Under the pieces are notes generated by a model. That model did no database searches and was not told the DNA's origin. It saw only the letters and a list, made by a program, of their open reading frames with translations. A stretch of DNA of 35,517 nt from Acidimicrobiales bacterium (lineage in GTDB: Bacteria > Actinomycetota > Acidimicrobiia > Acidimicrobiales > RAAP-2), in contig JADGOH010000104.1 of assembly GCA_017883025.1 (NCBI GenBank), forward strand, positions 1-35,517. Reading direction: 5' to 3'. Shown in pieces: positions 7,462 to 29,516 of this stretch (position 1 is the stretch's first letter; every line of letters starts with the position of its first letter). The translations under genes were made by a program, and so were the position numbers.

Positions 7462-8765
7462 GCCGCCCCGGTCGGGGGCGACGTCGGGGACACCACGACG
7501 CCAAGGTCGTCCCCGACCGTCGCCGGCGCCACGTCGACCGCGTGGAGCTCGGCATGCACGTGCCCGGGAACCCGCCGCCAGACGATCGCCGCCACGACCA
7601 GTGCACCCGCGGTCAGGACGGCGGCCGACAGGAACGGCAGCCACGCGGCGACGGCGAAGGCGGCGCCGGCCAGAGCGGCCGACACCGCGGTCAGGGCGGT
7701 CTGCGTGGTCCCGAACATCCCCTGGATGCGCCCGACCTCCGACGGTTCGGACCCCTGGGTCAGCAGCGACTGCAGGGCGGGCATGGCCGCGGCAAACCCG
7801 AGCGCCTCGGTGCCGCCCAGCACCATCAGGGCCGGGACCCAGTGGATGAACGGGTAGGACGCGCAGAACACCGTGGCCAGGCCCAGGCCACCGAGCACCA
7901 GCAGGCGCCGGTCCATGTGGTCGGCCAGCCAGCCGCTCGGTCGTGCGGCAATGACGAACGGCACCGCGAACAGCGTCCACGAGACGCCGATCTGCCAGCT
8001 GGTGGCCCCGCGGGACACGAGCAGCAGGGTCCAGCAGATGTCGTAGATGCCGGTGGTCAGCCCGAGGGCGGCCGCGGCGATGAGCGCACCGGTCATCGAC
8101 GGGCTCCAGTGCAGCGGGGCCAGCCGGTTGACGGTCCCGTCCCCGTTGGTCCGGGCCCTGCGGAGCGCGGCCTCCTCGGCCGGTTCGATGATGCGGGCGG
8201 CCGGGACGGCAGCGGCGCACGCCATCACGCCCGATGCGAGGAACATGATCCACATGTGGCGGGCGCCGACGATCGAGCCGATGAGCGGTCCCACGGCCAT
8301 CCCGGCTATCTCGGCGCTGAAGATCGACGCGAACGCCCGGCCGCGCCGCTCGACGGCGACGGCGCCCGACACCATGGCGAGTGCGGCGATGGCGGCACCC
8401 CCTGCGCCCAGGCCCTGGAGGCCGCGCAACACGATGGCCATCGTCGGCGCGATGGGAGCCAGGAAGGCGAAGCTGGCAAGGGCGTAGATGCCGAGTCCGG
8501 CCAGCAGCACCGGCTTGCGGCCGACCCGGTCCGCCAGTTTGCCCACCGGGTACTGGAACAGCACGCCGGCGGCGAAGAACGACGCCATGACCAGCCCGGC
8601 CAGCGTGTCGGTCCCGCCGAGGCTGCGGATGTAGACGGGCAGCATCGGGATGATCGACGTGGACCCCAGCCACAGCAGGAAGACGGTGACCGTGAGGGTG
8701 CGGATGAGCGCGACCGAGGCGTCGGTCGGCGGTGCGACGGGCGCGGCGGGTCCGCGGCGGATCAT
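7425..8765 (-). CDS. MFS drug-efflux-type transporter
   Basis: 446 residues with about 12 hydrophobic helices. The first helix follows a short Arg/Pro N-terminus (VFLLWLGSTSIIPMLPVYIRSLGG). The loop between helices 2 and 3 holds YPVGKLADRVGRKPVLL, the MFS motif A (GxLaDrxGrkxxl) of proton-coupled antiporters. It probably exports a hydrophobic compound. The ATG at 8765 is chosen over longer frames because it overlaps the TetR stop as ATGA, so the pair is translated together under TetR control. The C-terminal 12 codons overlap the 3' end of mscL on the other strand, an unusual tail-to-tail arrangement. Confidence 0.85.
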   Translation of the reverse strand: MIRRGPAAPVAPPTDASVALIRTLTVTVFLLWLGSTSIIPMLPVYIRSLGGTDTLAGLVMASFFAAGVLFQYPVGKLADRVGRKPVLLAGLGIYALASFAFLAPIAPTMAIVLRGLQGLGAGGAAIAALAMVSGAVAVERRGRAFASIFSAEIAGMAVGPLIGSIVGARHMWIMFLASGVMACAAAVPAARIIEPAEEAALRRARTNGDGTVNRLAPLHWSPSMTGALIAAAALGLTTGIYDICWTLLLVSRGATSWQIGVSWTLFAVPFVIAARPSGWLADHMDRRLLVLGGLGLATVFCASYPFIHWVPALMVLGGTEALGFAAAMPALQSLLTQGSEPSEVGRIQGMFGTTQTALTAVSAALAGAAFAVAAWLPFLSAAVLTAGALVVAAIVWRRVPGHVHAELHAVDVAPATVGDDLGVVVSPTSPPTGAAQPTVGVSAEVQ

Positions 8766-12431: not shown

Positions 12432-13814
12432 ATGACCGACGCCGCCGGTGCTGTCTTCGTCGACCTGGACCGCACGCTCATCCGCTCGGCCAGCGGGCCG
12501 ATCCTGCAGTCCGCCATGGTGGCCGAGGGGGTGCTTCCGTCGGGGCGCTCGCTGCCCGGCGAGCGCTATCTGTACGGCTTCTACAATACGTTCGGCGAGA
12601 CGGCGGCCTTCATGAGCCTGGCCCGGGCGGCCGCACGACTGATGAAGGGCCGGTCGGCCGACGCGGTGCGCACCGCCGGCGAGTCGGCCGTCGAGGAGCT
12701 GATCGACCTGGTCCAGCCCTGGGCCCTCGAACAGCTCGGTCAGCACCGGGCCGAGGGGCGTCTCATCGTGCTCGCCACGACCTCGCCCCTCGACCTGGTC
12801 ACGCCCCTGGCCCGGGCGCTCGACTTCGACGACGTCATCGCCACCCGCTACGAGGAGGTGGACGGTGACTACACCGGCCGGCTGGTGGGCAAGTTCGCCT
12901 GGGGGCGGGGCAAGCGGGACAAGGTCCGGGAGTGGGCGGCCTCCAACGCCATCGACCTGGCGGACTGCCACGTCTACTCCGACAGCGTCTTCGACGTCCC
13001 GGTCCTGAGCGCGGTCGGCCATCCCCATCCGCTCAACGCCGACCCGAGGTTGGCCGCGGTGGCCCTGGCCCGTCGGTGGCCGCTCGAGAACTGGGACCGG
13101 CCACCGGGGGTGCCGAGCGTCGTCGGCCTCGAGCCCTACCACCTGCTGCGGCCGTTCATCCGCCCCGAGTCCTTCCCCTACGCCCGGTTCACCGTGAACG
13201 GGATCGAGCACATCCCGGCGGAGGGCCCGGTGCTCCTGGTCTCCAACCACCGCAGCTACTTCGACGTGGCCGCGCTCGCGCTGGTGGCCGCCCGCCTGCG
13301 CCGTCCGGTGCGGTTCATGGGCAAGCAGGAGGTGTTCGACGCACCGGTGGTCGGGCAACTGGCCCGGGCGCTCGGCGGCATCCCGGTCGACCGTGACACG
13401 GCGCCCGGCCAGTCCATGGCGAAGGCGACCGCCGCGCTGCGGGCCGGCGAGGCCGTCTTCGTGCTGCCCCAGGGCACCATCCCGCGGGGTGAGGCCTTCT
13501 TCGACCCGGTGCTGCACGGCAAGACGGGCGCGGCCCGCCTGGCCGCCGCCACCGGTGCCCCCGTCGTCCCGATCGGGGTGTGGGGCACCGAGAAGGTGTG
13601 GCCCCGGTCGTCCAAGGTGCCGAACGTGGCCAACCTTCCCCACCCACCGCGGGTGACCGTCACCGTCGGGCCTCCGGTGCACCTGGGTGGTACCGACGCC
13701 GTGGCCGACACGGCGACCCTGATGTCCGCCGTCGTCGACCTCCTCCCGCCCGAGGCGCGAGAGGCGCACGTCCCCACCGACGAGGAACTGGCCGCCACCC
13801 GACCATCCGCGTGA
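12432..13814 (+). CDS. HAD-IB phosphatase / PlsC acyltransferase fusion
   Basis: 460 residues with two domains. Residues 1-220 are HAD-IB: motif I VDLDRT with Asp11 and Asp13, motif II around ATTSP (115-119), Lys/Arg-rich GRGKRDK (158-164), and motif IV YSDSVFD (182-188). Residues 240-440 are a PlsC-type acyltransferase: NHRSYFD (272-278, the HX4D pair His273/Asp278), GGIPVDRD (315-322) and LPQGTIPRG (345-353), where Gln replaces the usual Glu of FPEGTR. Such fusions occur in mycobacteria and relatives and would act on lysophospholipid or a phosphorylated lipid precursor at the membrane face. The gene overlaps murT by four bases (GTGA), linking it to envelope synthesis, and lies beside the 6C RNA. 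Confidence 0.88.
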   Translation: MTDAAGAVFVDLDRTLIRSASGPILQSAMVAEGVLPSGRSLPGERYLYGFYNTFGETAAFMSLARAAARLMKGRSADAVRTAGESAVEELIDLVQPWALEQLGQHRAEGRLIVLATTSPLDLVTPLARALDFDDVIATRYEEVDGDYTGRLVGKFAWGRGKRDKVREWAASNAIDLADCHVYSDSVFDVPVLSAVGHPHPLNADPRLAAVALARRWPLENWDRPPGVPSVVGLEPYHLLRPFIRPESFPYARFTVNGIEHIPAEGPVLLVSNHRSYFDVAALALVAARLRRPVRFMGKQEVFDAPVVGQLARALGGIPVDRDTAPGQSMAKATAALRAGEAVFVLPQGTIPRGEAFFDPVLHGKTGAARLAAATGAPVVPIGVWGTEKVWPRSSKVPNVANLPHPPRVTVTVGPPVHLGGTDAVADTATLMSAVVDLLPPEAREAHVPTDEELAATRPSA

Positions 13815-15154
13815 CGGTCCGACCCACCGCTCGTCCCCTCCCGCCGACCGGCGTGCGCGCCTCGGTGGCCGTGGCCGCCGTGTCGGCCGTCAACCGGTTG
13901 TCACGGGCCCTCGGCAGGGGCAGCGGCACGGTGGCCGGCGGACGGGCCGGTCTCGCGCTCGACCCCGGGCTGCTGACGACACTGGCCCGTGGCCGACGGG
14001 TGGCGCTGGTGTCGGGCACCAACGGCAAGACGACGACGACGCGCCTCCTGGCGACGGCGCTCGCCGGGGCCGGCGATGCGTCGTCGGTGGTGACCAACGA
14101 GACGGGGTCCAACATGCCGGCCGGCCACGTGGCCGCGCTGGCGGACGCCCCCGACGCCACCGTGGCCGTGCTCGAGGTGGACGAGGGCTACCTCGGCCGG
14201 CTCATCGAGGAGACCCATCCCGAGGTGGTGGTCCTCCTCAACCTGTCGCGTGACCAGCTCGACCGGATCGCCGAGGTGCGGATGTTGGTCGACCGGTGGC
14301 GCAATGCACTCGGCCGCCTGCCCGTAGCCGGTGCGGGGTCGACCGGGACCCTGGTCGTGGCGAACGCGGACGACCCCATGGTCGCCTACGCCGCCGGCAC
14401 GGCACCCGCGGTCCGGTGGATCGGGGCCGGCCAGGTGTGGCATGACGACGCCGTCGGCTGCCCTGCGTGCGGCGGCCGGATCACGTACGCCGACGACAGC
14501 CGGTGGGCGTGTGATCGCTGCGACTTCGCCCGGCCCGCGGTGGCCGCCGACGTGGTCGGCGACGAGCTCGTCCTGGCTGACGGCACCCGCCACCCGATCC
14601 GGATCGCTCTGCCCGGGCAGTTCAACCGGGCCAATGCCGCCATGGCGGCCATCGCGGCCCTACCCCTGCTCGAGGGGGTGGGTGAACGGGGCGCCGACGG
14701 GGGACCGGCCACCATCGACCTCGTGCTCGGGCGCCTGGCGTCGGTCACCGAGGTGGCCGGCCGGTTCTCCACGATCTCCCGGGCCGGGCACGACGTACGC
14801 CTCCTGCTGGCCAAGAACCCGGCGGGGTGGACGGCGATCTTCGATCTCCTGGACGAGACCGGTGACGCGGGCTCCCCGGTGGTCCTGTCGGTGAACGCCC
14901 GCATCGCGGACGGCCTCGACACCAGTTGGCTGTGGGACGTCCCCTTCGAGCGCCTGGCCGGACGGTCGGTGGTCGCAACCGGCGACCGGCGCCTCGACCT
15001 CGGCGTTCGCCTCCGCTACGCCGAGGTCGATCACGACGTCGTCGACGGGCCGCTGGCCGCGCTCGACCACGCGCTCGGACGCTCGGACGCCAAGGTGCCC
15101 GTGGAGTTCCTCGGGAACTACACCGCGTTCGCCGACCTGCGGCGGGCGAGGTGA
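13811..15154 (+). CDS. murT: Lipid II isoglutaminyl synthase, MurT subunit
   Basis: 447 residues from GTG 13811 (GTGA overlap with the preceding stop). Mur-ligase ATP-binding loop SGTNGKTTTTR at residues 68-78, EVDEGYL near 122-128, central-domain NLSRDQLDR at 144-152, and the MurT-specific Cys4 zinc ribbon (Cys217, 220, 234, 237; CPAC and CDRC). The C-terminal Mur ligase domain ends with EFLGNYTAF. MurT activates the alpha-carboxyl of D-Glu in the lipid II stem peptide by ATP; the partner GatD supplies ammonia, giving D-isoglutamine. The next gene is gatD with a GTGA overlap, ensuring equal production of the two subunits. Confidence 0.93.
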   Translation: MTVRPTARPLPPTGVRASVAVAAVSAVNRLSRALGRGSGTVAGGRAGLALDPGLLTTLARGRRVALVSGTNGKTTTTRLLATALAGAGDASSVVTNETGSNMPAGHVAALADAPDATVAVLEVDEGYLGRLIEETHPEVVVLLNLSRDQLDRIAEVRMLVDRWRNALGRLPVAGAGSTGTLVVANADDPMVAYAAGTAPAVRWIGAGQVWHDDAVGCPACGGRITYADDSRWACDRCDFARPAVAADVVGDELVLADGTRHPIRIALPGQFNRANAAMAAIAALPLLEGVGERGADGGPATIDLVLGRLASVTEVAGRFSTISRAGHDVRLLLAKNPAGWTAIFDLLDETGDAGSPVVLSVNARIADGLDTSWLWDVPFERLAGRSVVATGDRRLDLGVRLRYAEVDHDVVDGPLAALDHALGRSDAKVPVEFLGNYTAFADLRRAR

Positions 15155-17179: not shown

Positions 17180-18061
17180 ATGAAGGTGAGCACGGTGATC
17201 CTGCCCCACGAGCGCTGGGACCGGGCCCGGTCGACGTGGGAGCGGGCCGAGGCGCTCGGCTTCCACGCCGCCTACACCTACGACCACCTCAGCTGGCGGT
17301 CGTTCCGCGACGGGCCCTGGTTCGACGCCATGACGACCTTGACCGCCGCCTCGGTGGTCACCTCGTCGATCCGGCTCGGCACGATGGTGACCTCGCCGAA
17401 CTTCCGCCACCCGGTGCCCCTGGCCAAGGAGCTGCTCTCCATCGACGACGTGTCGCGGGGTCGCCTGGTGGTGGGGATCGGGTCCGGGGGCACAGGCTTC
17501 GACGCTGACGCTCTCGGCGGTCCGGGCTGGTCCGCCCGGGAGCGGACCGAGCGATTCGCCGAATTCGTCGAGCGGCTCCACCAGCTCCTGACCCGGACCG
17601 AGACCACGGAGCCGGGTCGCTACTACTCGGCGCACGAGGTCGTGCGGCACCCGGCTCCGCTGGCGGCGCCCCGCCCGCCGTTCGTGGTGTCCGCCCTGGG
17701 CCCGAGGGCGATGGCGGTGGCCGCCGGGTTCGGCCAGGGCTGGGTCACCATCGGAGGACTGCCCGACAGCGGGCACACCTCCACCGAATCTGCGGTGGCC
17801 GATCAGCTGCGCTCGCTGGACGCTGCGCTCGAGGCGCGCGGACGTGACACGGGGTCGGTGGAGCGGGTCTTCCTCGACGGGTTCACCGAGGAGCGGCCGC
17901 TCGAGTCCGTCGACGCCTTCGTGGACATGGCCGGGCGGTTCGGGCGCCTCGGGATCACCGAGCTCGTCGTGCACTGGCCGATCCCGGGCTGCCAGTTCGA
18001 CGTGGACCCCACGCTGTTCGAGCGGATCGTCACCGACGGCGTGGCTCAGCTGGGGGGGTAG
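17180..18061 (+). CDS. LLM-class F420-dependent oxidoreductase
   Basis: 293 residues. The start MKVSTVILPHERW follows a leaderless promoter. Family features: AEALGFHAAYTYDHLSWR (residues 22-39), IRLGTMVTSPNFRHPVPLAKEL, IDDVSRGRLVVGIGSGGTGFDADALGG (the cofactor phosphate loop), ERFAEFVERLHQLL and a C-terminal GRFGRLGITELVVHWP strand. Length and the YDHLSWR loop resemble F420-type enzymes more than bacterial luciferase. The neighbouring PaiB-like gene also encodes a flavin-binding protein, but they are divergent and separately promoted. Substrate unknown. Confidence 0.87.
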   Translation: MKVSTVILPHERWDRARSTWERAEALGFHAAYTYDHLSWRSFRDGPWFDAMTTLTAASVVTSSIRLGTMVTSPNFRHPVPLAKELLSIDDVSRGRLVVGIGSGGTGFDADALGGPGWSARERTERFAEFVERLHQLLTRTETTEPGRYYSAHEVVRHPAPLAAPRPPFVVSALGPRAMAVAAGFGQGWVTIGGLPDSGHTSTESAVADQLRSLDAALEARGRDTGSVERVFLDGFTEERPLESVDAFVDMAGRFGRLGITELVVHWPIPGCQFDVDPTLFERIVTDGVAQLGG

Positions 18062-21680: not shown

Positions 21681-22331
21681 TCACCGGGTCGCGCCCGTGC
21701 CGTTGGTGCACTCCCCGCCCTTCTCCCCGCCCTGACCGCCACCTGCGTACCGGGCGGTGAAGGCGGCCAGGCGCGGGTCGGCCGGACCGGTCAGGTCGAC
21801 CTGGGCGCCCCACGTCGAGGCGACGACCGGTGAGCCGAGACCGGGATAGGGGCTGAGCAGGACGTAGCCCTGCGAACCGGTCTCGTGGCCGCGCGCGAAC
21901 ACCTGGAGTGCGGCGACCGAACCGGTGTCCAGGTCGGGCCGGTAGGTGATCCAGACGGCCCCGTGCTCCATGGAATGGACGGCGTGCTCGTTCAGCACCG
22001 GCCGGTCGTAGACCCCGCAGTTCTGCCAGACCGCACTGTGGGCGCCACCAGCGGGCGGGGTCCGGTCGTAGGCGACCGGACCGGTGACGTGGTGGTGGTC
22101 CTTCTCGGGGAACGTCTTGAGTCCGCTGATGCCGGTGGCCGCCGTCGTGCCACTGCCGGTCGATCCGCTGCCGGAGGTGAGCACGACGGTGCCGACGATC
22201 GCGAGCAACACGACGACGGTGCCGACGATCACGTAGGGACGTCGGGCGCGGCGCCGTTCCGCCCGCCGGGTGGCCTCGCGTGCGGCTGCGCGATCGGCGT
22301 CACGGTGTGCGCTGCGTGCCTGCTTGCCCAT
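21681..22331 (-). CDS. DUF3105 membrane-anchored protein
   Basis: 216 residues from ATG 22331, preceded by a GAGGAG ribosome site. A highly basic N-terminus (about 32 residues of Arg/Ala) is followed by one helix (33-52) and a Gly/Ser linker; the rest is outside the membrane. The DUF3105 signature is clear: DHHHV, then PPAGGAHSAVWQNCGVYD, EHAVHSMEHGAVWITYRP, a histidine-rich pattern that might bind a metal, with GSQGYVLLSPYPGL after it. Function of DUF3105 is unknown. It ends in a Gly/Glu-rich tail with one Cys. The gap to the SHOCT gene is 147 bases, so it may be a separate transcript. Confidence 0.87.
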   Translation of the reverse strand: MGKQARSAHRDADRAAAREATRRAERRRARRPYVIVGTVVVLLAIVGTVVLTSGSGSTGSGTTAATGISGLKTFPEKDHHHVTGPVAYDRTPPAGGAHSAVWQNCGVYDRPVLNEHAVHSMEHGAVWITYRPDLDTGSVAALQVFARGHETGSQGYVLLSPYPGLGSPVVASTWGAQVDLTGPADPRLAAFTARYAGGGQGGEKGGECTNGTGATR

Positions 22332-22458: not shown

Positions 22459-23484
22459 TCAGCGCTTCGTGCGGGGCCAGTCGTTGCCCTCGGCGTCGAT
22501 GGCCGGGGTCCGGTCGGGGGCGGGGGCCAGCGCCCAGGCACGCCGCCACGGGGCGACGTCGGGGCCCTGGAGCGACGGCGTCCCGCCCGTGGCCGCCTGC
22601 TTGCGGGCCGTCCACCAGTCGGTGGTCGACTCGTTGGCGAGGGTGGCGACGGCGGATTCGATCCGCTCGGCGAACCGGCGGGCGTCCTCGCCCTCGGCGG
22701 GCCACAGCGGCGTCCCGAAGGTGACGGTGGTGCGGGTCCGCTTCGGCATGCCGCCCCCCTTGGGCAGGATGTGGCGGGTGCCGTCCAGGTGGACGGGAAC
22801 GACCGGACGCCCGGTGCGTGCCGCAAGGTAGGCGGCTCCGCCCCGGAACTGCTGGGCCCATCCGTCGGGCGAGCGCCCACCCTCGGGAAAGATGACCAGG
22901 TTCCAGTCGTCGGCCAGCAGCTCGGCGGCCAGGTCGGCGGACCGCCGGTTGACCTTGGTGCGCTCGATGGGGATGGCCCCAAGCAGGAACGAGAACGCGT
23001 CGGCCTTCCACCGCCGGTCGAAGAAGTAGTCGGCCGCGGCCGCCACCACCGTACGGTGCCGGAACTTCAAAGGCAGGCAGGCGAGCAGGAGCGGCGTGTC
23101 GACGTGGCTGGCGTGGTTGGCGGCGAAGATGACCGGCCCGTCCAGGTCGGCCAGGTACTCGTCGCCCCGCAGCTGGGGCTGGGCCACGACCCGGGCCAGC
23201 GGACGGGTCACATTGTCGAGCACCATCGCCCGGGCCAGGCGCACCGGGTACTTCCGCGACCAGGCGGTGTCGTAGTGGACGCCCAGTTCCGGCTCGGGCG
23301 CCGGACGCGGCACCGAGCCGGGCCACGTGGGGGCGGCCAACGGGAACGTGCTCCGGCCGGCCCTCGCCAGGAGCGCCGAGGGGCGCAGGCGCGCAGGCGC
23401 GGCTGCGTCGTCTCCGAGCGCGGCATCGGTGCGAACCGCCCGCCGCGATCGCAGGGTACGGGAGGAGTCCCGTGTCGTGCTCAC
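22459..23484 (-). CDS. PlsC-type 1-acylglycerol-3-phosphate O-acyltransferase
   Basis: 341 residues from GTG 23484, overlapping the LarA-like stop (GTGA). An Arg/Ala-rich N-terminal 60 residues precede the acyltransferase domain: FAANHASHVDTPLL with His124 and Asp129 (HX4D motif I), AIPIERTK (170-177, motif II), IFPEGGRSPDGW (198-209, motif III) and RPVVPVHL (motif IV). It is peripheral or monotopic on the cytoplasmic face and transfers an acyl chain from acyl-CoA or acyl-ACP to a lysolipid or alcohol. It is the last gene of the four-gene coupled operon with an acyl reductase, an alcohol dehydrogenase and a LarA-like protein. The acceptor is unknown. Confidence 0.85.
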   Translation of the reverse strand: MSTTRDSSRTLRSRRAVRTDAALGDDAAAPARLRPSALLARAGRSTFPLAAPTWPGSVPRPAPEPELGVHYDTAWSRKYPVRLARAMVLDNVTRPLARVVAQPQLRGDEYLADLDGPVIFAANHASHVDTPLLLACLPLKFRHRTVVAAAADYFFDRRWKADAFSFLLGAIPIERTKVNRRSADLAAELLADDWNLVIFPEGGRSPDGWAQQFRGGAAYLAARTGRPVVPVHLDGTRHILPKGGGMPKRTRTTVTFGTPLWPAEGEDARRFAERIESAVATLANESTTDWWTARKQAATGGTPSLQGPDVAPWRRAWALAPAPDRTPAIDAEGNDWPRTKR

Positions 23485-25070
23485 TGCACGTCGGCCATGA
23501 GGATCGGCGGGGAGTGGAGATGGGTGAGCGTGGGGGAGGGTCCGACCACGTCCCGGGCCATCTCGAGGGCGTCCGCCATCGTCGAGGCCGCCCGGAATCC
23601 GAGCCGGTGCACGGCCTTGGCGTCGCCGCCCACGATGATGACCGCGCCGAGGTGCTCGAGTGCGTGCGCGCACCAATACCACATGTAGAAGGGGTGGACA
23701 CCGTGGTAGGCGTGCCCGGTGCGGTAGAGGTGGATGTACCACGGGTCAGTGGCGAAACCGTGCTCGTACTGCTCCGACATGACGTTCGCGTCCGTCGTCT
23801 CGCTGAGGACCTGCTCGAAGAAGTCGATGTAGCTCGGGTGGTGGACCGGGTTGAACTCCCACCGGGTCGGGTGGGTCATGATCAGCACGCCACCCTCGCG
23901 CACCAGCGGCTTGCCCCGGTAGAGGTTGAAGAAGTATCCGAGTCCGAGGCAGGCCACCAGGATCGGGTTGAGGATCGAGTTGACGTTGTACGGGCTGATG
24001 TAGGGGAGCCCCATCGTCAGGATGTCGGTCTGGCCCTCGACCACGACGCCCTGCTGCTCCCACACGTTGGCGGTGGTGATGGCGTGGACGGCCTCGACTT
24101 CGCCGGCCTGCACCGAGGTCATCCGGTGCGGCGCCTTCACGGAGTGGAAGATCTGGCGGGCGTAGCGGGCGGGCACCCGGTCGAGCGCCTTGGACGCGCC
24201 CAGGAAGGCGATCCGGTCCTTCGCCTTCCACTCCCACTCGCGCTTCTGCAGGAACTTGAAAGCGTCGGGGAACGTGTCGGTGTTGAGGGTCGTCTCGATC
24301 TGGAAGACCTTCACCCCGGCGTCGCGGATGAGCCGGCCCATCCGCCAGTTGGCCGTGTGCAGCTCGGACTTGTGCTGGTCCATGAACGACTTGGACTTCC
24401 GCATGGTGGCGGGGTTGTGGTGGTGGCGCAGGCTCTTGTAGCTGGCCAGACCGGTGGCGACGCTCTTGTGCCCCCCGTCCATCGCCACGAGGTTGATGTT
24501 GACGTAGACCAGCAGGTCGGACTCGGCGGCCCGCTTGTTGATCTCCACGTCCTCGTCGTGGTCGGTCTTGCCCAGGTGGATCAGGTTGTCCGGGTCCTCG
24601 GCGTCGTGCTGGGTGAGGAGGCCGTTCGGGGCGAAGGCATCGTAGATCCGGTCGCCGACGGCGTGGCGCAATTCGGACTCGGTCATCCGCCGGTGCAGGG
24701 CGAGGGCCACGATCAGCTCGACGTCGTCCACGCCGGCGTCGGCCGCCATGTCGAGGACCTGCTCGATCACCAGCTGGCGGATGTCCGGGCGCTCCATGGG
24801 GGGCAGTGGGAGCGAAATGTCATCGAAGGCGATGGTGAGCCGCATCCCCGTGAACAGCAGCGCGGGCAGCGGCTCCTGGTCGCCCTCGGGGTGGGTCAGG
24901 GCGTGGCGGATGGCGGCCTGGGGGTCCGACAGCGGCTCCATCGGCTCGGGGGCGTAGATGACCCGGCTGCCCTCGGGCAGCTTCTCGAGCGAGAACCGCT
25001 CGCCGTGCCAGAACAGGGTGGGCGGTGTCGAGCTGTCTACGTCGAGCACGAATCCGGGCCTGGGGCTCAT
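23481..25070 (-). CDS. LarA-like (DUF2088) nickel-racemase homologue, divergent
   Basis: 529 residues from ATG 25070, overlapping the ADH stop (ATGA). The N-terminal half matches LarA: DDISLPLP (83-90), GVDDVELIVALALHRRMTESEL with His126, and GGHKSVATGL with Lys202 and His218 (HHHNP). Using an offset of +18, these equal LarA His108, Lys184 (covalent attachment of the nickel-pincer cofactor) and His200. The second catalytic His (LarA His174) would be Ile192, flanked by Asn, so simple two-base racemisation looks unlikely. The C-terminal half is much larger than in LarA (VREGGVLIMTHPTRWEF, MSEQYEHGF). LarA enzymes interconvert alpha-hydroxy acids; larB, larC and larE are not in this window. The residue mapping is my manual alignment from memory. 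Confidence 0.75.
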   Translation of the reverse strand: MSPRPGFVLDVDSSTPPTLFWHGERFSLEKLPEGSRVIYAPEPMEPLSDPQAAIRHALTHPEGDQEPLPALLFTGMRLTIAFDDISLPLPPMERPDIRQLVIEQVLDMAADAGVDDVELIVALALHRRMTESELRHAVGDRIYDAFAPNGLLTQHDAEDPDNLIHLGKTDHDEDVEINKRAAESDLLVYVNINLVAMDGGHKSVATGLASYKSLRHHHNPATMRKSKSFMDQHKSELHTANWRMGRLIRDAGVKVFQIETTLNTDTFPDAFKFLQKREWEWKAKDRIAFLGASKALDRVPARYARQIFHSVKAPHRMTSVQAGEVEAVHAITTANVWEQQGVVVEGQTDILTMGLPYISPYNVNSILNPILVACLGLGYFFNLYRGKPLVREGGVLIMTHPTRWEFNPVHHPSYIDFFEQVLSETTDANVMSEQYEHGFATDPWYIHLYRTGHAYHGVHPFYMWYWCAHALEHLGAVIIVGGDAKAVHRLGFRAASTMADALEMARDVVGPSPTLTHLHSPPILMADVQ

Positions 25071-26305
25071 CGGGTCCGTCCTTTCGGGTTGCGGAGGTCG
25101 AAGGCCACTTTGACCGCACCCCGGCGGCCGGCGGCCCCGGCGTGGGCCAGGGCCTCCTCGTAGCGCTCGAGCGGGTACAGGGCCGAGACGAGTCGGCCGA
25201 GGCCTTTGGTCCCGACGAGGTCGATGGCGAGCTCGAAGCTGCGCCGGTCCGGCGTGCCCGGGTCGGGGGTCGCCTCGCTGCCGTAGGCGTAGGCGCCGAC
25301 CAGGGTCAGCTCGCGGTGCCACAGCGGGGCGAGGTCGACGGTGACCTTGCCGGGCATGCCCACCAGCACGACCCGACCCCGCGCCCGCACCAGGGACAGC
25401 GACTCGGTGATGGAGGCGGCGCTGCCCACGCAGTCGAACACCACGTCGGCACCCTCGGTCAGCCGGCCGCCGAGCACGAGTGAGCCCGAGGCCCGCCGAA
25501 CGGCTCGGGCCAGCTGGTCGGGCGGGACGACCTGGTCGGCACCGAGCGAGGTGGCCAGCGCGCGCTGGTTGGCATGCTTGGCCCCGACGACGATCGTGCA
25601 GGGCGTTCGGGGCCGCACCATCCCGTCGAGGGCGGCGACGGTGGTGAGGCCGAGGGTGCCGGCACCCACGACGGCCACCAGGTCGCCGTCGGCGACGTGG
25701 GCCGACAGCGCGGCGTGGACGGCGCAGGCCGTCGGCTCGATCAGCACGGCGTCCTGGTCGGACAACTCGTCGGGCACGGCGTGGAGCTGGCTGGCATGGG
25801 CCATCAGCGGGGCCGTCGACCAGCCGCCGCCGGTGTCGGTGCAGAAGCCGGTCTGGAGCCCGGCGGCCAGCCGACCGGAGGCGAGGTTGCCGCACAGGCC
25901 GGTGTGGCCCGACCCGCACTGCTCGCACACCGGGAGGATGTGGCGCGGCGCGCACCCGAGCACTGGCTCGATCACGGCACGGGTCCCTGGTACCAGTGCG
26001 CGGCCGGCGTGGTCGGTGCCGCCGTCGTCGAGGACGCCCACGACCTCGTGGCCGGGGACGAAGGGGAACGACACCATGTCCTCGAAGTAGCGCGACGTGC
26101 GGCCGTCGAGGGTGGCCAGGTCGGAGCCGCAGATCCCGGACAGCAGCGGCCGCAGCGGGAACCAGTCGTCGCCCGGCCGGTCGGGGGCGTCGGCGTCGAG
26201 CAGCTGTAGCGGTCCGATCCCCGCGCCCCGGCCGGAGCCGAGGACGGAGGCGAGCCGGGCGGCGGCGAAGCGCGGCACGTTGCGCTCCACGACGAGCGCC
26301 TTCAC
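25067..26305 (-). CDS. Zinc-dependent alcohol dehydrogenase (MDR family)
   Basis: 412 residues from GTG 26305, overlapping the SDR-HAD stop (GTGA). Catalytic zinc ligands Cys59 (SGICGSD) and His86-Glu87 (VPGHEVVG), with a further Glu in IEPTACAVHA. Structural zinc site: Cys118, 127, 130 and 138 (CEQC...GLC). NAD-binding Rossmann loop VVGAGTLGL near residue 215. The insertion between residues 15 and 50 is longer than in sorbitol or threonine dehydrogenases. It oxidises or reduces an alcohol; the operon suggests a fatty alcohol or polyol headgroup precursor. The frame upstream of GTG 26305 lies in the neighbouring gene and is excluded. Confidence 0.87.
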   Translation of the reverse strand: MKALVVERNVPRFAAARLASVLGSGRGAGIGPLQLLDADAPDRPGDDWFPLRPLLSGICGSDLATLDGRTSRYFEDMVSFPFVPGHEVVGVLDDGGTDHAGRALVPGTRAVIEPVLGCAPRHILPVCEQCGSGHTGLCGNLASGRLAAGLQTGFCTDTGGGWSTAPLMAHASQLHAVPDELSDQDAVLIEPTACAVHAALSAHVADGDLVAVVGAGTLGLTTVAALDGMVRPRTPCTIVVGAKHANQRALATSLGADQVVPPDQLARAVRRASGSLVLGGRLTEGADVVFDCVGSAASITESLSLVRARGRVVLVGMPGKVTVDLAPLWHRELTLVGAYAYGSEATPDPGTPDRRSFELAIDLVGTKGLGRLVSALYPLERYEEALAHAGAAGRRGAVKVAFDLRNPKGRTR

Positions 26306-28758
26306 CGGTTGCCTCCCATGGTGCGGCGGGCCTGGCCGGTGAGGGCGGCCGGGCTGGTGCGTCCGCGGGCCGCGGCTCCGCGCCGGTCGAGCGGGCCGAG
26401 CGGGAGCATGGGCTGGGCGCCGCCGTCGGCCTTGTGCCACGTCTCGACGTGCCAGCCCCGGCGGCGGGCGATGGCCGCCAGCTTCGCCTCGGGGTTGACG
26501 GCCACCGGGAAGCCCACGGCCTCGAGCATGGGCAGGTCGCTGGCCGAGTCGGCGTAGGCCATGGACTCCTCGAGCTTCAGTCCCTCGGACTCGGCGAAGT
26601 CGGCGAGCACCAGGGCCCGGGCCTCGCCGATGGGCGGCAGCACCTCGAGGCGGCCGGTGAAGGTGCCGTCCTCCTCGCCCAGGCGGGCGCACACGATCTC
26701 GTCGAACAGCGGCCGGAACGGTTCGACCACGAAGTCGAGGGCGCCGGTGATGAGGATGGTGCGGTGTCCGAGGGCCTGGTGGGCCCGGACCCGGGCAATG
26801 CCGGCCGGGAACGACTTGGCCAACAGGAGGTGGTGGAAGAGGTCCCAGCCGTCGTCGCGCAGGCGGGCCACCGGCGCTCCGTCGTATCGACGGTAGAAGG
26901 AGCGGAGGAAGTCGCCCCGGTCGCGCCGGTCGAGGGCGAGCAGCGCCGGTGCCTCGGCCATCAGGTCGGCGACGAATGTGGCCCGCTCGCCCGCCGGCAG
27001 GTGGCGCGAGGCGAGCCACGCGTAGGAGTCGACCACGTTGGAGGCGATCAGCGTGTTCTCGAGGTCGAAGGCGGCCAGGTGGCGGTCGGGGGAGAGGATG
27101 TTCTTGCGTGCCCGGTCGGCGCGGTTGGTCTTGACCGATTTGCCCGGCGTGGTGCGGACCCGGGCATGCTCGATGATCGACGGCAGGTGGATCTCGTTGA
27201 CGTAGGTCGCCCAGTCGACGGCGGCCGGGTCGAGGCAGAAGGTGGCCCGGTCGTCCTCGTCCATCCGGTCCCACAGGGCGATCAGGCGGTCGACCCGGTA
27301 CAGGGCGTCGGTCTCGGTGTAGGCCCCGTAGAGCTCGACGTAGCCGAGGGCGCGGTCGGCCAGCAGGTGCTGCTCCTCGAGCGCGGCCATCCACTCGGCC
27401 TGCTTGCCCCGGATGGGAAGCGACCCGACCACCCGCTCGGCGAGCGACATGGCCTTGGAGGCACGGGAGAGCTGGCGCTGGACCCGACCCCGTCCCGGGA
27501 ACGACCACTCGGGAACCACGATGGGCTGGCCGTCCGGGTCGTAGAGGGGGTGCTCGGTGAACCAGGCGGTCACCAACTCCACCAGCCGCCCGTAGCGGAA
27601 CGGGTTCCGGACGCCGGAGGCCACGTGGTACACCGACGGGCCGGCGTACGCGTCGGCCGGGTCGTCCGAGTCGGCGTGCAGGAGGGCCTCGCCGGCCACG
27701 GCGATGATGGCGGCCACCACGAGGTCGACGGGGATCACGTCGGTCACGCCCTCAGGTACCCCCGGAAACTCCCGGAGCAGGCCGCGGGCGTAGGAGATGA
27801 TGATCGGCTCGGCCATGCGGAACCCGCGGATCCAGCCTGGGCGGGGCTCGGCCAGCGCGGACTCGATGATCGAGGGGCGGATCACCGTGAGGGGGACGGT
27901 GTCGCCGTACTGGGCCACCAGGGCCCGCTCACCCAGAGCCTTCGTGTACGGGTAGGCGTCGGGCCACCCGAGCGACTGCGCCCGGGCCTGGCCGATCGAG
28001 ACCATCTGCTTCTTGACCCAGTCCTCGCGCAGCCGCTCGGCCCGCTCGGCCAGCAGGTGGAGTCCGGCACCGCCGAGCTCCTCGCGTGCGTCCTTGTGGA
28101 ACTGCAGCAGGTGATCGGGACGACGGGATTCGGCCTCGCTGTCGCCTCGTTGGCGACGGGCGGCGGCCACTTCGTGGCGCCAGTCGACGTCCAGGGTGAA
28201 CGGGTTTGCGTCGAGCAGCTCCTCCTTGGCCTCGCCCTGGTGGGTGCTGGCCACGTACGCGGTCGACACCGGAACGAAGTGGATTGGTCCCCGGCGTGCG
28301 TCGGCCTCGGCCAGGTCGCGGGCGGCGACGAAGGCGGCGGCCACCCGGGAGGGCCCCAGCAGATTGACCTCGACGGCGGCGTCGAGCGGCGAGTCGAAGC
28401 TGACCGAGGCGGCCGAGTGCACCACGACGTCGCAGTGCGACATCGCCTCGAGACCGGCATCGTCCAGGCCGAGCCCGTCGGTGGCGACGTCGCCGGCCAC
28501 GGCTGCCACCCGTGCGGCCATCTCCTCGTCGAACCGGTCGCCCAGCTCCTCGCGGAGGCGGTCGAAGCAGTCGTTCTTCAGGATCTCCTTGGCCGCCCGC
28601 TGCATGGGCGACGCTCGCCGGCCCGGTCGGATGAGGAGGACGACCTGGCTGTCGGGGACGCTGCGCAGGATCCGTTCGACCAGTGCGGTGCCGAGGAATC
28701 CGGTGGCGCCGGTGATGAAGAAACGCCTACCGGCGAGGGCGTCGCGGACGCGGGTCAC
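26302..28758 (-). CDS. Fatty-acyl-CoA-reductase-like SDR fused to HAD-IB domain
   Basis: 818 residues from GTG 28758. Residues 10-400: extended SDR of the male-sterility/FAR type with ITGATGFLG (15-23), AGDVATDGLGL, HSAASVSF (114-121), Ser165, and catalytic Tyr269 and Lys273 in YPYTK, plus IRPSIIESA. Residues 560-785 form HAD-IB: motif I FDLENTL (Asp565; the second Asp of DxD is Glu567), ILITGALDFV motif II, and YADSASDLPML motif IV. The C-terminal 35 residues are basic. Expected chemistry is NADPH reduction of an acyl thioester to aldehyde or alcohol, with the HAD part possibly removing a phosphate. The Asp-to-Glu change weakens confidence in phosphatase activity. It leads the operon and diverges from tetR across a palindrome. 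Confidence 0.85.
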   Translation of the reverse strand: MTRVRDALAGRRFFITGATGFLGTALVERILRSVPDSQVVLLIRPGRRASPMQRAAKEILKNDCFDRLREELGDRFDEEMAARVAAVAGDVATDGLGLDDAGLEAMSHCDVVVHSAASVSFDSPLDAAVEVNLLGPSRVAAAFVAARDLAEADARRGPIHFVPVSTAYVASTHQGEAKEELLDANPFTLDVDWRHEVAAARRQRGDSEAESRRPDHLLQFHKDAREELGGAGLHLLAERAERLREDWVKKQMVSIGQARAQSLGWPDAYPYTKALGERALVAQYGDTVPLTVIRPSIIESALAEPRPGWIRGFRMAEPIIISYARGLLREFPGVPEGVTDVIPVDLVVAAIIAVAGEALLHADSDDPADAYAGPSVYHVASGVRNPFRYGRLVELVTAWFTEHPLYDPDGQPIVVPEWSFPGRGRVQRQLSRASKAMSLAERVVGSLPIRGKQAEWMAALEEQHLLADRALGYVELYGAYTETDALYRVDRLIALWDRMDEDDRATFCLDPAAVDWATYVNEIHLPSIIEHARVRTTPGKSVKTNRADRARKNILSPDRHLAAFDLENTLIASNVVDSYAWLASRHLPAGERATFVADLMAEAPALLALDRRDRGDFLRSFYRRYDGAPVARLRDDGWDLFHHLLLAKSFPAGIARVRAHQALGHRTILITGALDFVVEPFRPLFDEIVCARLGEEDGTFTGRLEVLPPIGEARALVLADFAESEGLKLEESMAYADSASDLPMLEAVGFPVAVNPEAKLAAIARRRGWHVETWHKADGGAQPMLPLGPLDRRGAAARGRTSPAALTGQARRTMGGNR

Positions 28759-28768
28759 CCGATCTGTC

Positions 28769-28774
28769 TACCAT
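28769..28774 (+). promoter_or_regulatory. -10 hexamer TACCAT of the divergent TetR gene
   Basis: TACCAT is followed by seven bases and GTG 28782, suggesting a leaderless transcript. It is the left half of the TACCATATGGTA palindrome. Confidence 0.4.
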
Positions 28775-28780
28775 ATGGTA
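28769..28780. promoter_or_regulatory. Shared operator TACCATATGGTA between the lipid operon and tetR
   Basis: A perfect 12-bp palindrome in the 23-base gap between two divergent starts (28758 minus, 28782 plus). It contains or touches candidate -10 hexamers for both directions (TACCAT forward; TAGACA at 28765-28770 on the minus strand, a partial match). A TetR dimer here could shut off both transcripts. Confidence 0.65.
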
Positions 28781-28781
28781 A

Positions 28782-29516
28782 GTGACCAGGTCGACCATGC
28801 CAGCGGGGGAGCCGACGAAGCGTCCGGCGGCCGGATCGGACGGACGCGGCGCAGCCAGGGCGGCTGCCCGGGACCGGAGCCGGCCCCGTCCCGTGCCCGA
28901 GGGCGGGCGCACCGACGCCGGGGGAGCCAGTACGTCGGCGCGGATCCTGGACGCAGCACTCGTGTCGTTCGCCACCCGGGGCTACGAGGCGTCGTCGCTC
29001 GACGCCCTCGCCGTGGGGCTGGACATCCGTAAGCAGACCATCCTCTACTGGTTCCCGAGCAAGGAGGTCCTGCTCGAGGCCGTCATCGACCGGAGCGCCA
29101 TCGAATTGTCGGCGGCCCTGGAGGCGTCGCTGGCCTCAGCCGGCTCCGGATGGGCCCGGGTCGAGGCCGTCGTGCGGTCGGTGTTCCGGCTGGCGGCCCG
29201 TCGCCCCGAGCTGCTCGGCCTGGTGCGCGAGATGGGCCGCCTGGGCACGCCGGCCGCCACCCGGTTCGTCACCGCGGTCGAGCCATTGGTGCAGCGGGCC
29301 ACCGGTTTCCTGGAGGCCGAGATGGACGCCGGCCACATGCGCCGGCACGATCCCCGGCTGTTGCTGCTGGCCATCTACTCCACGGTGATCGGCATGCTCA
29401 CCGAGGTCGAGGTGCTCCGGGCCTTCGGCGAGGAGCCCACCGCCCGATCGCTGGTGCGACGGCGCAACGAGATCCTGGAGCTGCTCCGCTCGGCCCTCGT
29501 CACCGAGCAGGGCTGA
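28782..29516 (+). CDS. TetR-family regulator of the divergent lipid operon
   Basis: 244 residues from GTG 28782. The first 50 residues are basic, low-complexity and probably disordered; ATG 28797 and GTG 28893 are later alternatives, but only 28782 fits the leaderless spacing from TACCAT. The TetR domain spans residues 52-100: ARILDAALVSFATRGYEASSLDALA, then the HTH LDIRKQTILYWFPSKEVLLEAV. The ligand domain continues to the end (LAARRPELLGLVREMGR, LLLLAIYSTVIGMLTEVEVLRA). It probably represses itself and the SDR-HAD operon, responding to an acyl or alcohol ligand; the ligand is inferred from context. Confidence 0.85.
   Translation: MTRSTMPAGEPTKRPAAGSDGRGAARAAARDRSRPRPVPEGGRTDAGGASTSARILDAALVSFATRGYEASSLDALAVGLDIRKQTILYWFPSKEVLLEAVIDRSAIELSAALEASLASAGSGWARVEAVVRSVFRLAARRPELLGLVREMGRLGTPAATRFVTAVEPLVQRATGFLEAEMDAGHMRRHDPRLLLLAIYSTVIGMLTEVEVLRAFGEEPTARSLVRRRNEILELLRSALVTEQG

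Follow-up and report, generated by a model that had tools for sequence, protein, structure and literature searches.

The window, by which we mean the whole stretch of 35,517 nucleotides of contig JADGOH010000104.1 from an Acidimicrobiales bacterium, harbours an operon of four genes that probably builds an unusual membrane lipid by means of a rare cofactor containing nickel. We give an even chance to the reading that this TetR-controlled operon makes a glycerophospholipid in which a chain derives from a fatty alcohol, a 1-O-alkyl (ether) glycerol phosphate being the likeliest product. A preliminary description of the locus, which as a whole was partly supported, had placed four genes (acyl reductase-HAD, Zn-ADH, LarA-like protein and PlsC) on the minus strand with a divergent TetR gene. 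The positions and frames were confirmed, and the gene names were borne out by domain searches (Pfam/NCBIfam). The features are as follows.

22459-23484, minus strand: PlsC/AGPAT-type acyltransferase (Pfam)
23481-25070, minus strand: LarA-like protein, NCBIfam NF052592 (LarAH14/15/16) (profile score, AlphaFold2, structure match)
25067-26305, minus strand: Zn-dependent medium-chain alcohol/polyol-type dehydrogenase, ADH (Pfam ADH_N, ADH_zinc_N)
26302-28758, minus strand: FAR-HAD, fatty acyl-CoA reductase (NAD_binding_4 and Sterile-like C-terminal part) fused to a HAD-IB phosphatase domain (Pfam/NCBIfam)
28768-28781, no strand assigned: operator CTACCATATGGTAA, one mismatch from CTACCANNTGGTAG, core palindrome 28769-28780 (operator scan)
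28782-29516, plus strand: divergent TetR-family regulator, start codon uncertain (Pfam TetR_N)

The four genes are joined by stop/start overlaps of 4 bases each (GTGA at 26302-26305, ATGA at 25067-25070 and GTGA at 23481-23484). Domain matches were obtained to NAD_binding_4 (E 3.4e-56) and HAD (1.3e-25) in FAR-HAD, Lar_N (1.9e-38), Acyltransferase (4.6e-21) and TetR_N (1.9e-10), and ADH_N and ADH_zinc_N were also matched. The closest solved structure to FAR-HAD by sequence (phmmer) was the fatty acyl-CoA reductase 7eoz (E 1.2e-63, residues 5-533). The protein has the NAD_binding_4 domain with the TGxxGxxG and YxxxK motifs of a FAR, where G17/G20/G23 were present in 99 of 101 aligned rows (the other two had gaps) and Y269 and K273 in all 101; its C-terminal Sterile-like part scored 28.7 bits against a Pfam cut-off of 35.4. 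The HAD residues D565, D737 and D741 were likewise found in all 101 rows; in motif I, which is DxD in HAD phosphatases, the second acid was Glu in 84 rows and Asp in the other 17. In 8 of 10 genomes no FAR-type protein other than FAR-HAD matched strongly. Residues C59, H86, E87 and E190 of ADH were retained in at least 97% of 125 rows, as were N123, H124, S126, H127 and D129 together with P200, E201, G202 and R204 of PlsC in at least 97% of 119 rows.

The earlier proposal of a single co-regulated operon with lipid enzymes was borne out, and the operon proved widespread. The gene order is not confined to one genome; the same order was found in many relatives. We compared 99 loci with matches to FAR-HAD, ADH and LarA that covered at least half of each protein, the loci being non-independent and a few genomes perhaps counted twice; all four genes stood in the same order on one strand in 83, and the first three in the remaining 16. 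LarA lay beside at least two partners, with order kept, in the fetched loci of 24 of 25 families (f72 was left out). The operons of L084, L095/L187 and L112/L189 had no ADH, the ADH-LarA gap exceeded 500 bases in 5 of the 99 loci, and several loci of family f47 had other genes between ADH and LarA. LarA was matched at E 1e-30 in 102 genomes, from which 22 with at most 44% identity were excluded, giving a near set of 80; LarC was present in 17 of the 22 excluded genomes. Across 396 Actinomycetota genomes, LarA and FAR-HAD were both present in 79 (25 families) and both absent in 313, while LarA alone was found in 1 and FAR-HAD alone in 3. This corresponds to a phi of 0.97, the significance of which is overstated because the carriers are phylogenetically clustered, and divergence was correlated (r 0.93). 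In the window's own family, the 10 listed genomes without LarA also lacked FAR-HAD and LarC. One genome (G137) had LarA and FAR-HAD on separate contigs, and another (G395) had FAR-HAD without an operon-type LarA. Chance proximity of the genes was ruled out by the order in 99 loci and the co-occurrence in 396 genomes.

The palindrome TACCATATGGTA lies at 28769-28780, within the 23-base gap (28759-28781) separating the assigned start codons of FAR-HAD and TetR. Since this gap is so short and the TetR match starts only at residues 40-51 in many relatives, the true TetR start may be further downstream. A divergent TetR homologue was present in many Acidimicrobiia loci. The split into 53 divergent and 44 non-divergent loci was made by script, with L013 and L026 scored as non-divergent; in these two a divergent TetR is in fact present, its assigned start overlapping the FAR start. 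Before the operon, CTACCANNTGGTAG was found at 0-1 mismatch in 51 of the 53 loci scored as divergent, against 1 of 1,060 Markov-shuffled segments and none of 1,010 other segments. In the rest of the window it occurred only as two 2-mismatch sites, at 7992 and 30115. The operator offers a simple handle for studying regulation of the operon.

The LarA-like protein belongs to NF052592, scoring 904.6 bits over residues 7-529 (curated cut-off 740), and three operon LarAs from other families also scored above the cut-off (854-920). Its AlphaFold2 model (pLDDT 94.8) matched best the single-His LarA-like enzyme 9q3k (TM 0.76/0.83). After 11 distant rows of 149 had been set aside, K202, H218, D84 and H126 were invariant in all 138 aligned rows; by alignment these correspond to Lys184, which tethers the nickel-pincer nucleotide (NPN), the Ni ligand His200, Asp72 and His108. 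The position of the second catalytic His174 is taken by N191 (138/138) or N193 (136/138), and that of the substrate/phosphate Arg75, position 87, by Leu in 127, Ile in 7 and Cys in 4. The His174 and Arg75 of LarA racemases and epimerases are thus both missing, which speaks against a plain two-way 2-hydroxy-acid racemase. An alpha-hydroxy acid acceptor interconverted by LarA, as suggested earlier, found no support, with the second catalytic His and the carboxylate-binding Arg gone and the Frankia LarAH14 protein inactive on every substrate in the published table (PMC7583248, available part; the LarAH group numbering is that of Desguin et al. 2020 in the same paper). LarA-Sp (9q2u/9q3k) and LarA-Bw (9q3j) resemble the window LarA in having Asn at the second His, a single catalytic His, and the NPN Lys and Ni His. 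However, identity to them is at most 24%, the Lys that they carry in place of the substrate Arg corresponds to Leu in the window protein and their His306 to Pro360, and their genes, unlike the window LarA, adjoin sugar genes (PMC12611868). The more distant LarAs of family f51 had AMP-binding and HEAT-repeat neighbours, which gave no clue to substrate.

LarB, LarC and LarE were all above cut-off in 14 of 16 sampled class genomes that carry LarA and are at least 90% complete; in the window's own genome (71.65% complete) only LarC was found. LarC was present in 73 of 80 LarA carriers as against 142 of 316 other genomes, and of the 7 carriers without it, the two searched further also lacked LarB and LarE. 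The two exceptions among the 16, G066 and G075, carry LarA with none of the three maturation proteins over cut-off, which would suit a LarAH14/15/16 protein that is a scaffold or free of NPN, in an operon that runs without nickel. The lost second His and substrate Arg and the inactive Frankia group 14 protein (PMC7583248, available part) point the same way. We nevertheless consider this quite unlikely: Lys202, His218, Asp84 and His126 are kept in every one of the 138 rows, those of G066 and G075 included, whereas the Lys and His are gone in relatives L151-L153, and NPN is present in the structure of a relative that shares the His-to-Asn change (PMC12611868).

In the ether-lipid pathway that we favour, FAR would, judging by its family, convert acyl-CoA to fatty aldehyde or alcohol, and PlsC, or PlsY in family f47, would acylate glycerol-3-phosphate or a close analogue. 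ADH may act on the aldehyde or on an sn-2 hydroxyl or ketone, and HAD would remove phosphate. In what is the weakest step, LarA with NPN may transfer a hydride at a single stereocentre of a glycerol-type substrate, and the transient ketone would then allow exchange or reduction of the chain. A more specific form of this step, which we hold to be unlikely, makes LarAH14 a nickel-pincer counterpart of alkylglycerone-phosphate synthase (AGPS), itself a member of a 2-hydroxy-acid flavoenzyme family. C2 of 1-acyl-glycerol phosphate would be oxidised to a bound ketone with its hydride parked on NPN, a FAR-made fatty alcohol would replace the C1 acyl chain, and the hydride would be returned. If true, aerobic Actinomycetota would have a redox-neutral, nickel-dependent ether-lipid route, and the LarA superfamily its first reaction other than an isomerisation.

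Family f47, which we take to be a Rubrobacter family, has PlsY instead of PlsC; of the 12 loci fetched, 10 carry it directly upstream of FAR-HAD on the same strand. The swap ties the operon to a step in which glycerol-3-phosphate or an analogue is acylated. The f47 loci scored showed neither a TetR gene nor the operator. Sinninghe Damste et al. 2023 reportedly proposed a putative 1-O-alkyl-glycerol-phosphate operon for Rubrobacterales, which is possibly the f47 version of the window operon. Mixed ether/ester lipids have been reported as dominant in Rubrobacterales, going by a title cited in the available part of PMC11150832.

The proposed pathway is best read as set apart from the elb, AGPS and PlsA/Ger systems. 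The preliminary description knew of no pathway with this combination; that is fair for the exact four-gene set within the literature searched, but FAR, HAD and an AGPAT-like acyltransferase also occur together in the myxobacterial elb ether-lipid operon (elbA-E of Myxococcus; PMC9131029, available part). The window set differs from elb in having Zn-ADH and LarA instead and FAR fused to HAD. ElbD-type acyl-CoA synthetase/ACP domains and an ElbA/ElbE-type epimerase were absent from the four proteins, and membership in elb was ruled out by this domain content. FAR, an acyltransferase and a reductase are expected in the AGPS pathway, as in the window operon. The operon itself encodes no AGPS, and of 8 carrier genomes only two, G063 and G069, had recognisable AGPS-like proteins, in a check made partly by motif (no motif in L165 and L176; L181 unclear; L182 left out; L180 and L159 compared with solved structures). 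The AGPS candidates of G118, an f47 genome which we take to be Rubrobacter xylanophilus, were GlcD/YdiJ-like. AGPS as the general ether enzyme was ruled out by this absence from the operon and from most carrier genomes checked; a FAD route is possible in some carriers because of the AGPS-like proteins in G063 and G069. DUF2229, presumably the mark of PlsA/Ger ester-to-ether reductases, had no match in 10 of 10 genomes, with a positive control in 4 named genomes including Thermotoga maritima, which ruled out the PlsA/Ger route in these genomes. If the pathway holds, the operon supplies candidate ether-lipid genes for aerobic actinobacteria in which a general AGPS or PlsA/Ger marker was not found.

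The same enzymes could instead make a lipid on an unusual backbone or head group, with ADH and LarA making or epimerising a polyol or sugar-acid phosphate that PlsC/PlsY acylates and the FAR alcohol serving as second chain. The best-scoring families for ADH were polyol-type dehydrogenases (inosose, idonate, threonine), all far below cut-offs, and the nearest solved LarA relatives adjoin sugar genes, with a modelled phosphorylated sugar-like ligand that the authors themselves describe as highly speculative (PMC12611868). On the other hand, in 2 of the 4 f47 genomes searched no PlsY was found besides the operon's own, which favours ordinary glycerol-3-phosphate, and the reference loci showed no head-group gene common to different classes next to the operon, most flanking frames there being unannotated. 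We regard this alternative as possible but rather doubtful. A wax ester or storage lipid operon, in which FAR makes a fatty alcohol, the acyltransferase esterifies it and LarA and ADH are incidental passengers, is very unlikely. Fatty acyl-CoA reductases do act in wax ester synthesis elsewhere (PMC11948995, available part), but the acyltransferase here is of PlsC type by Pfam. LarA is hardly a passenger, because it is better conserved than any of its partners (mean pairwise identity 67%, against 53% for FAR-HAD and ADH) and FAR-HAD is present in 79 of 80 LarA carriers; on these two grounds a wax operon with passenger LarA was rejected.

Within the available texts of the literature searched, we found no connection of LarAH14/15/16 with lipids and no lipid data for Acidimicrobiia, and no publication was found joining lactate racemase to ether lipid or DUF2088 to acyltransferase/ADH lipid genes. 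With the favoured ether-lipid pathway, an orphan nickel-pincer enzyme family, of which one member was assayed and was inactive, would gain a metabolic home and a short list of candidate substrates. If true, ether or fatty-alcohol-derived lipids are predicted in Acidimicrobiia, which inhabit soils, lakes and seas. The conserved outer frames annotated around the operon in Acidimicrobiia were a GATase_3/MurT pair, a HAD-PlsC protein, a LysR regulator and a glyoxalase-like protein.

The arrangement given in the preliminary description, four minus-strand genes with three overlaps and a TetR gene divergent across a palindrome, was confirmed by coordinates, Pfam and NCBIfam. The source genome of the window is 2.5 Mb in size and 71.65% complete. 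The name of each of the following genes agrees with both Pfam and NCBIfam.

Genes of the operon and its regulator in the window
26302-28758, minus strand, FAR-HAD (acyl reductase and HAD)
25067-26305, minus strand, Zn-ADH
23481-25070, minus strand, LarA-like protein
22459-23484, minus strand, PlsC
28782-29516, plus strand, TetR, divergent from the operon

The FAR-HAD/ADH/LarA/PlsC junctions are overlaps of GTGA, ATGA and GTGA, respectively, and half of the 23-base gap between FAR-HAD and TetR is taken up by the palindrome TACCATATGGTA. In HAD motif I of FAR-HAD, the second acidic position (residue 567, near 27058-27060 of the window) was Glu in 84 and Asp in 17 of 101 rows. Elsewhere in the window, a DUF3105 protein (21681-22331, minus strand) lies directly downstream of PlsC, a Luciferase-like monooxygenase is present at 17180-18061 (plus strand), and a second HAD-acyltransferase fusion (HAD and PlsC; 12432-15154, plus strand) adjoins a MurT-like ligase, a pair that other Acidimicrobiia, e.g. 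at locus L009, also carry within a few kb of their operon.

The operon is a conserved unit. A query of genome contigs with LarA gave at least 571 relatives, of which the 80 best were kept; among these, the top relatives carry the label Acidimicrobiaceae, and at least one partner gene adjoins LarA in the same order in 80/80 loci, the absent genes being mostly lost at contig ends, with an internal absence of ADH at L084. The same gene order was found outside the class in families f37, f42, f43, f45, f69, f74, f89 and f90. Operon-type LarA occurs in 25 family codes (f72 not fetched), and in fetched loci of the other 24 LarA has two or more partners next to it with the order kept; in these loci ADH is absent from f6 and f35, and PlsC from f47. 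When FAR-HAD, ADH and LarA were each required to match across half their length (99 loci), all four genes were ordered on one strand in 83 loci and the first three in 16. In 396 Actinomycetota genomes, with LarA counted at ≥50% identity, LarA and FAR-HAD occurred together in 79, LarA alone in 1, FAR-HAD alone in 3 (G117, G282, G395) and neither in 313 (phi 0.97, phylogeny ignored). The sole LarA-only genome (G256) has a FAR-HAD fragment on its LarA contig (L135). Ten listed genomes from the family to which the window belongs have none of LarA, FAR-HAD and LarC. No other operon protein is as conserved as LarA, whose divergence tracks that of FAR-HAD (r 0.93 over 87 loci) and that of PlsC (r 0.91 over 71 loci). 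MAGs labelled Bifidobacterium breve (L072), Acidobacteriota (L030) and Acidobacteria (L073) carry an Acidimicrobiia-type operon with LarA identity of 73-77%, and these taxon labels look doubtful.

We scanned 165 bases surrounding the FAR-HAD start for a candidate operator. The motif CTACCANNTGGTAG was present at 0, 1 and 2 mismatches in 33, 18 and 2, respectively, of the 53 loci in which TetR was scored as divergent, and at 0-1 mismatch in 8 of 44 other loci, the controls giving 1/1,060 and 0/1,010. Among these eight, L013 and L026 have a divergent, overlapping TetR, while L118, L125, L130 and L131 keep the site with TetR downstream of PlsC; thus the site follows TetR and not its place. This distribution suggests that TetR likely exerts autoregulated repression through the putative operator. 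An operator-like palindrome occurs twice ahead of FAR-HAD at L014:4205-4300.

PlsC had no match in the 12 fetched loci of f47. In 10 of these 12, a PlsY-like frame directly precedes FAR-HAD in the same orientation; of the exceptions, L135 has no upstream sequence and L143 lacks a nearby FAR-HAD, which in its genome (G137) sits on another contig. A match to Pfam PF02660 confirms the frame of L141 and, judged by position, those of G118, G090, G147 and G104; G090 and G147 have only the operon match, G104 has two and G118, which we take to be Rubrobacter xylanophilus DSM 9941, has three. The inference of a lipid operon made earlier is supported by the conserved gene set and order and by PlsY standing in place of PlsC in f47. 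Mixed ether/ester lipids are reported to predominate in Rubrobacterales, and a lipid study by Sinninghe Damste et al. (2023) reportedly also proposes a putative 1-O-alkyl glycerol phosphate operon; if so, part of the ether-operon idea has already been published for Rubrobacter. Literature searches at the level of listings found no lipid evidence for Acidimicrobiia. G014 and G026 are presumably Acidimicrobium ferrooxidans and Ilumatobacter coccineus.

The operon was compared with known ether-lipid routes. DUF2229, taken by us as a marker of the ester-to-ether reductases PlsA/Ger, was found in 0/10 genomes searched. AGPS, alkylglycerone-phosphate synthase, was looked for in eight carrier genomes and recognised in two: it is the best PDB match of L180 from G069 (8.7e-53), and L178 from G063 has the SHHHGVG motif in common with it. 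The three FAD-oxidase_C proteins of G118 comprise one best matched by glycolate oxidase and two YdiJ/GlcD-like proteins under the cut-off; the remaining genomes were judged on the motif alone. Eight of 10 genomes have FAR-HAD as their sole strong match to NAD_binding_4; G090 and G147 have a second one. The elb operon of Myxococcus, as described in PMC9131029, shares FAR, HAD and AGPAT with the present operon but also has ACS, ACP and epimerases.

LarA of the window falls in NF052592 (904.6 bits against a cut-off of 740), as do the three operon LarAs tested from other families (854-920 bits), while four relatives outside the operon score below the cut-off (146-521 bits). Its AlphaFold2 model (pLDDT 94.8) best matches the single-histidine LarA-like structures 9q3k and 9q3j, followed by lactate racemases. 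D84, H126, K202 and H218 (D72, H108, K184 and H200 of LarA) are invariant in 138 family members, in which Leu, Ile or Cys occupies the Arg75 site and Asn the His174 site, either N191 (138/138) or N193 (136/138) being alignable to the latter. A relative with an equivalent His-to-Asn change carries NPN, the nickel-pincer nucleotide, in its structure (PMC12611868). A Frankia group 14 member has no activity on any substrate within the table of PMC7583248. With these replacements and the inactive Frankia member, the hydroxy-acid acceptor suggested earlier for LarA is not supported. In PMC11770544, the name LarAH15 is used for a different enzyme, a Phytophthora gluconate epimerase.

In 80 genomes of the class, LarA gave 18 matches (one weak, G050), and LarC, LarE and LarB gave 17, 16 and 16 over the cut-off; all four were present in 14 of the 80. 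The window's own genome has LarA and LarC. G004 and G077 have LarB, LarC and LarE with operon-type LarA absent. G066 and G075 (completeness 96-98%) have LarA without LarB, LarC or LarE over the cut-off, and their LarA proteins (L094, L095, L187, L188) retain the NPN residues. In the phylum set, LarC was found in 73/80 LarA carriers vs 142/316 others (p 3e-15, kinship ignored). These counts argue that operon-type LarA likely uses NPN, a use not universal by this test.

Upon the observed gene set, order, co-occurrence, operator, residues and usual presence of maturation genes, a pathway can be proposed in which FAR would give a fatty alcohol or aldehyde, the acyltransferase (PlsC or PlsY) would acylate a glycerol phosphate, ADH may have either an aldehyde or the sn-2 position as its target, LarA would perform single-enantiomer hydride chemistry on a glycerol-type substrate, and HAD would dephosphorylate. 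In its boldest form, this mechanism would make LarA a nickel analogue of AGPS. We favour an ether lipid as the product of the operon, and put its chances at about even.

Two groups of more distant LarA relatives were also seen. L151-L153 (f73; 25-30% identity) lack the NPN-tethering Lys and Ni-binding His in the alignment and, judged by these residues, appear to be a natural non-NPN contrast. L146-L148 (f51; ~40% identity) have no FAR operon nearby, and their neighbourhood includes AMP-binding and HEAT-repeat genes.
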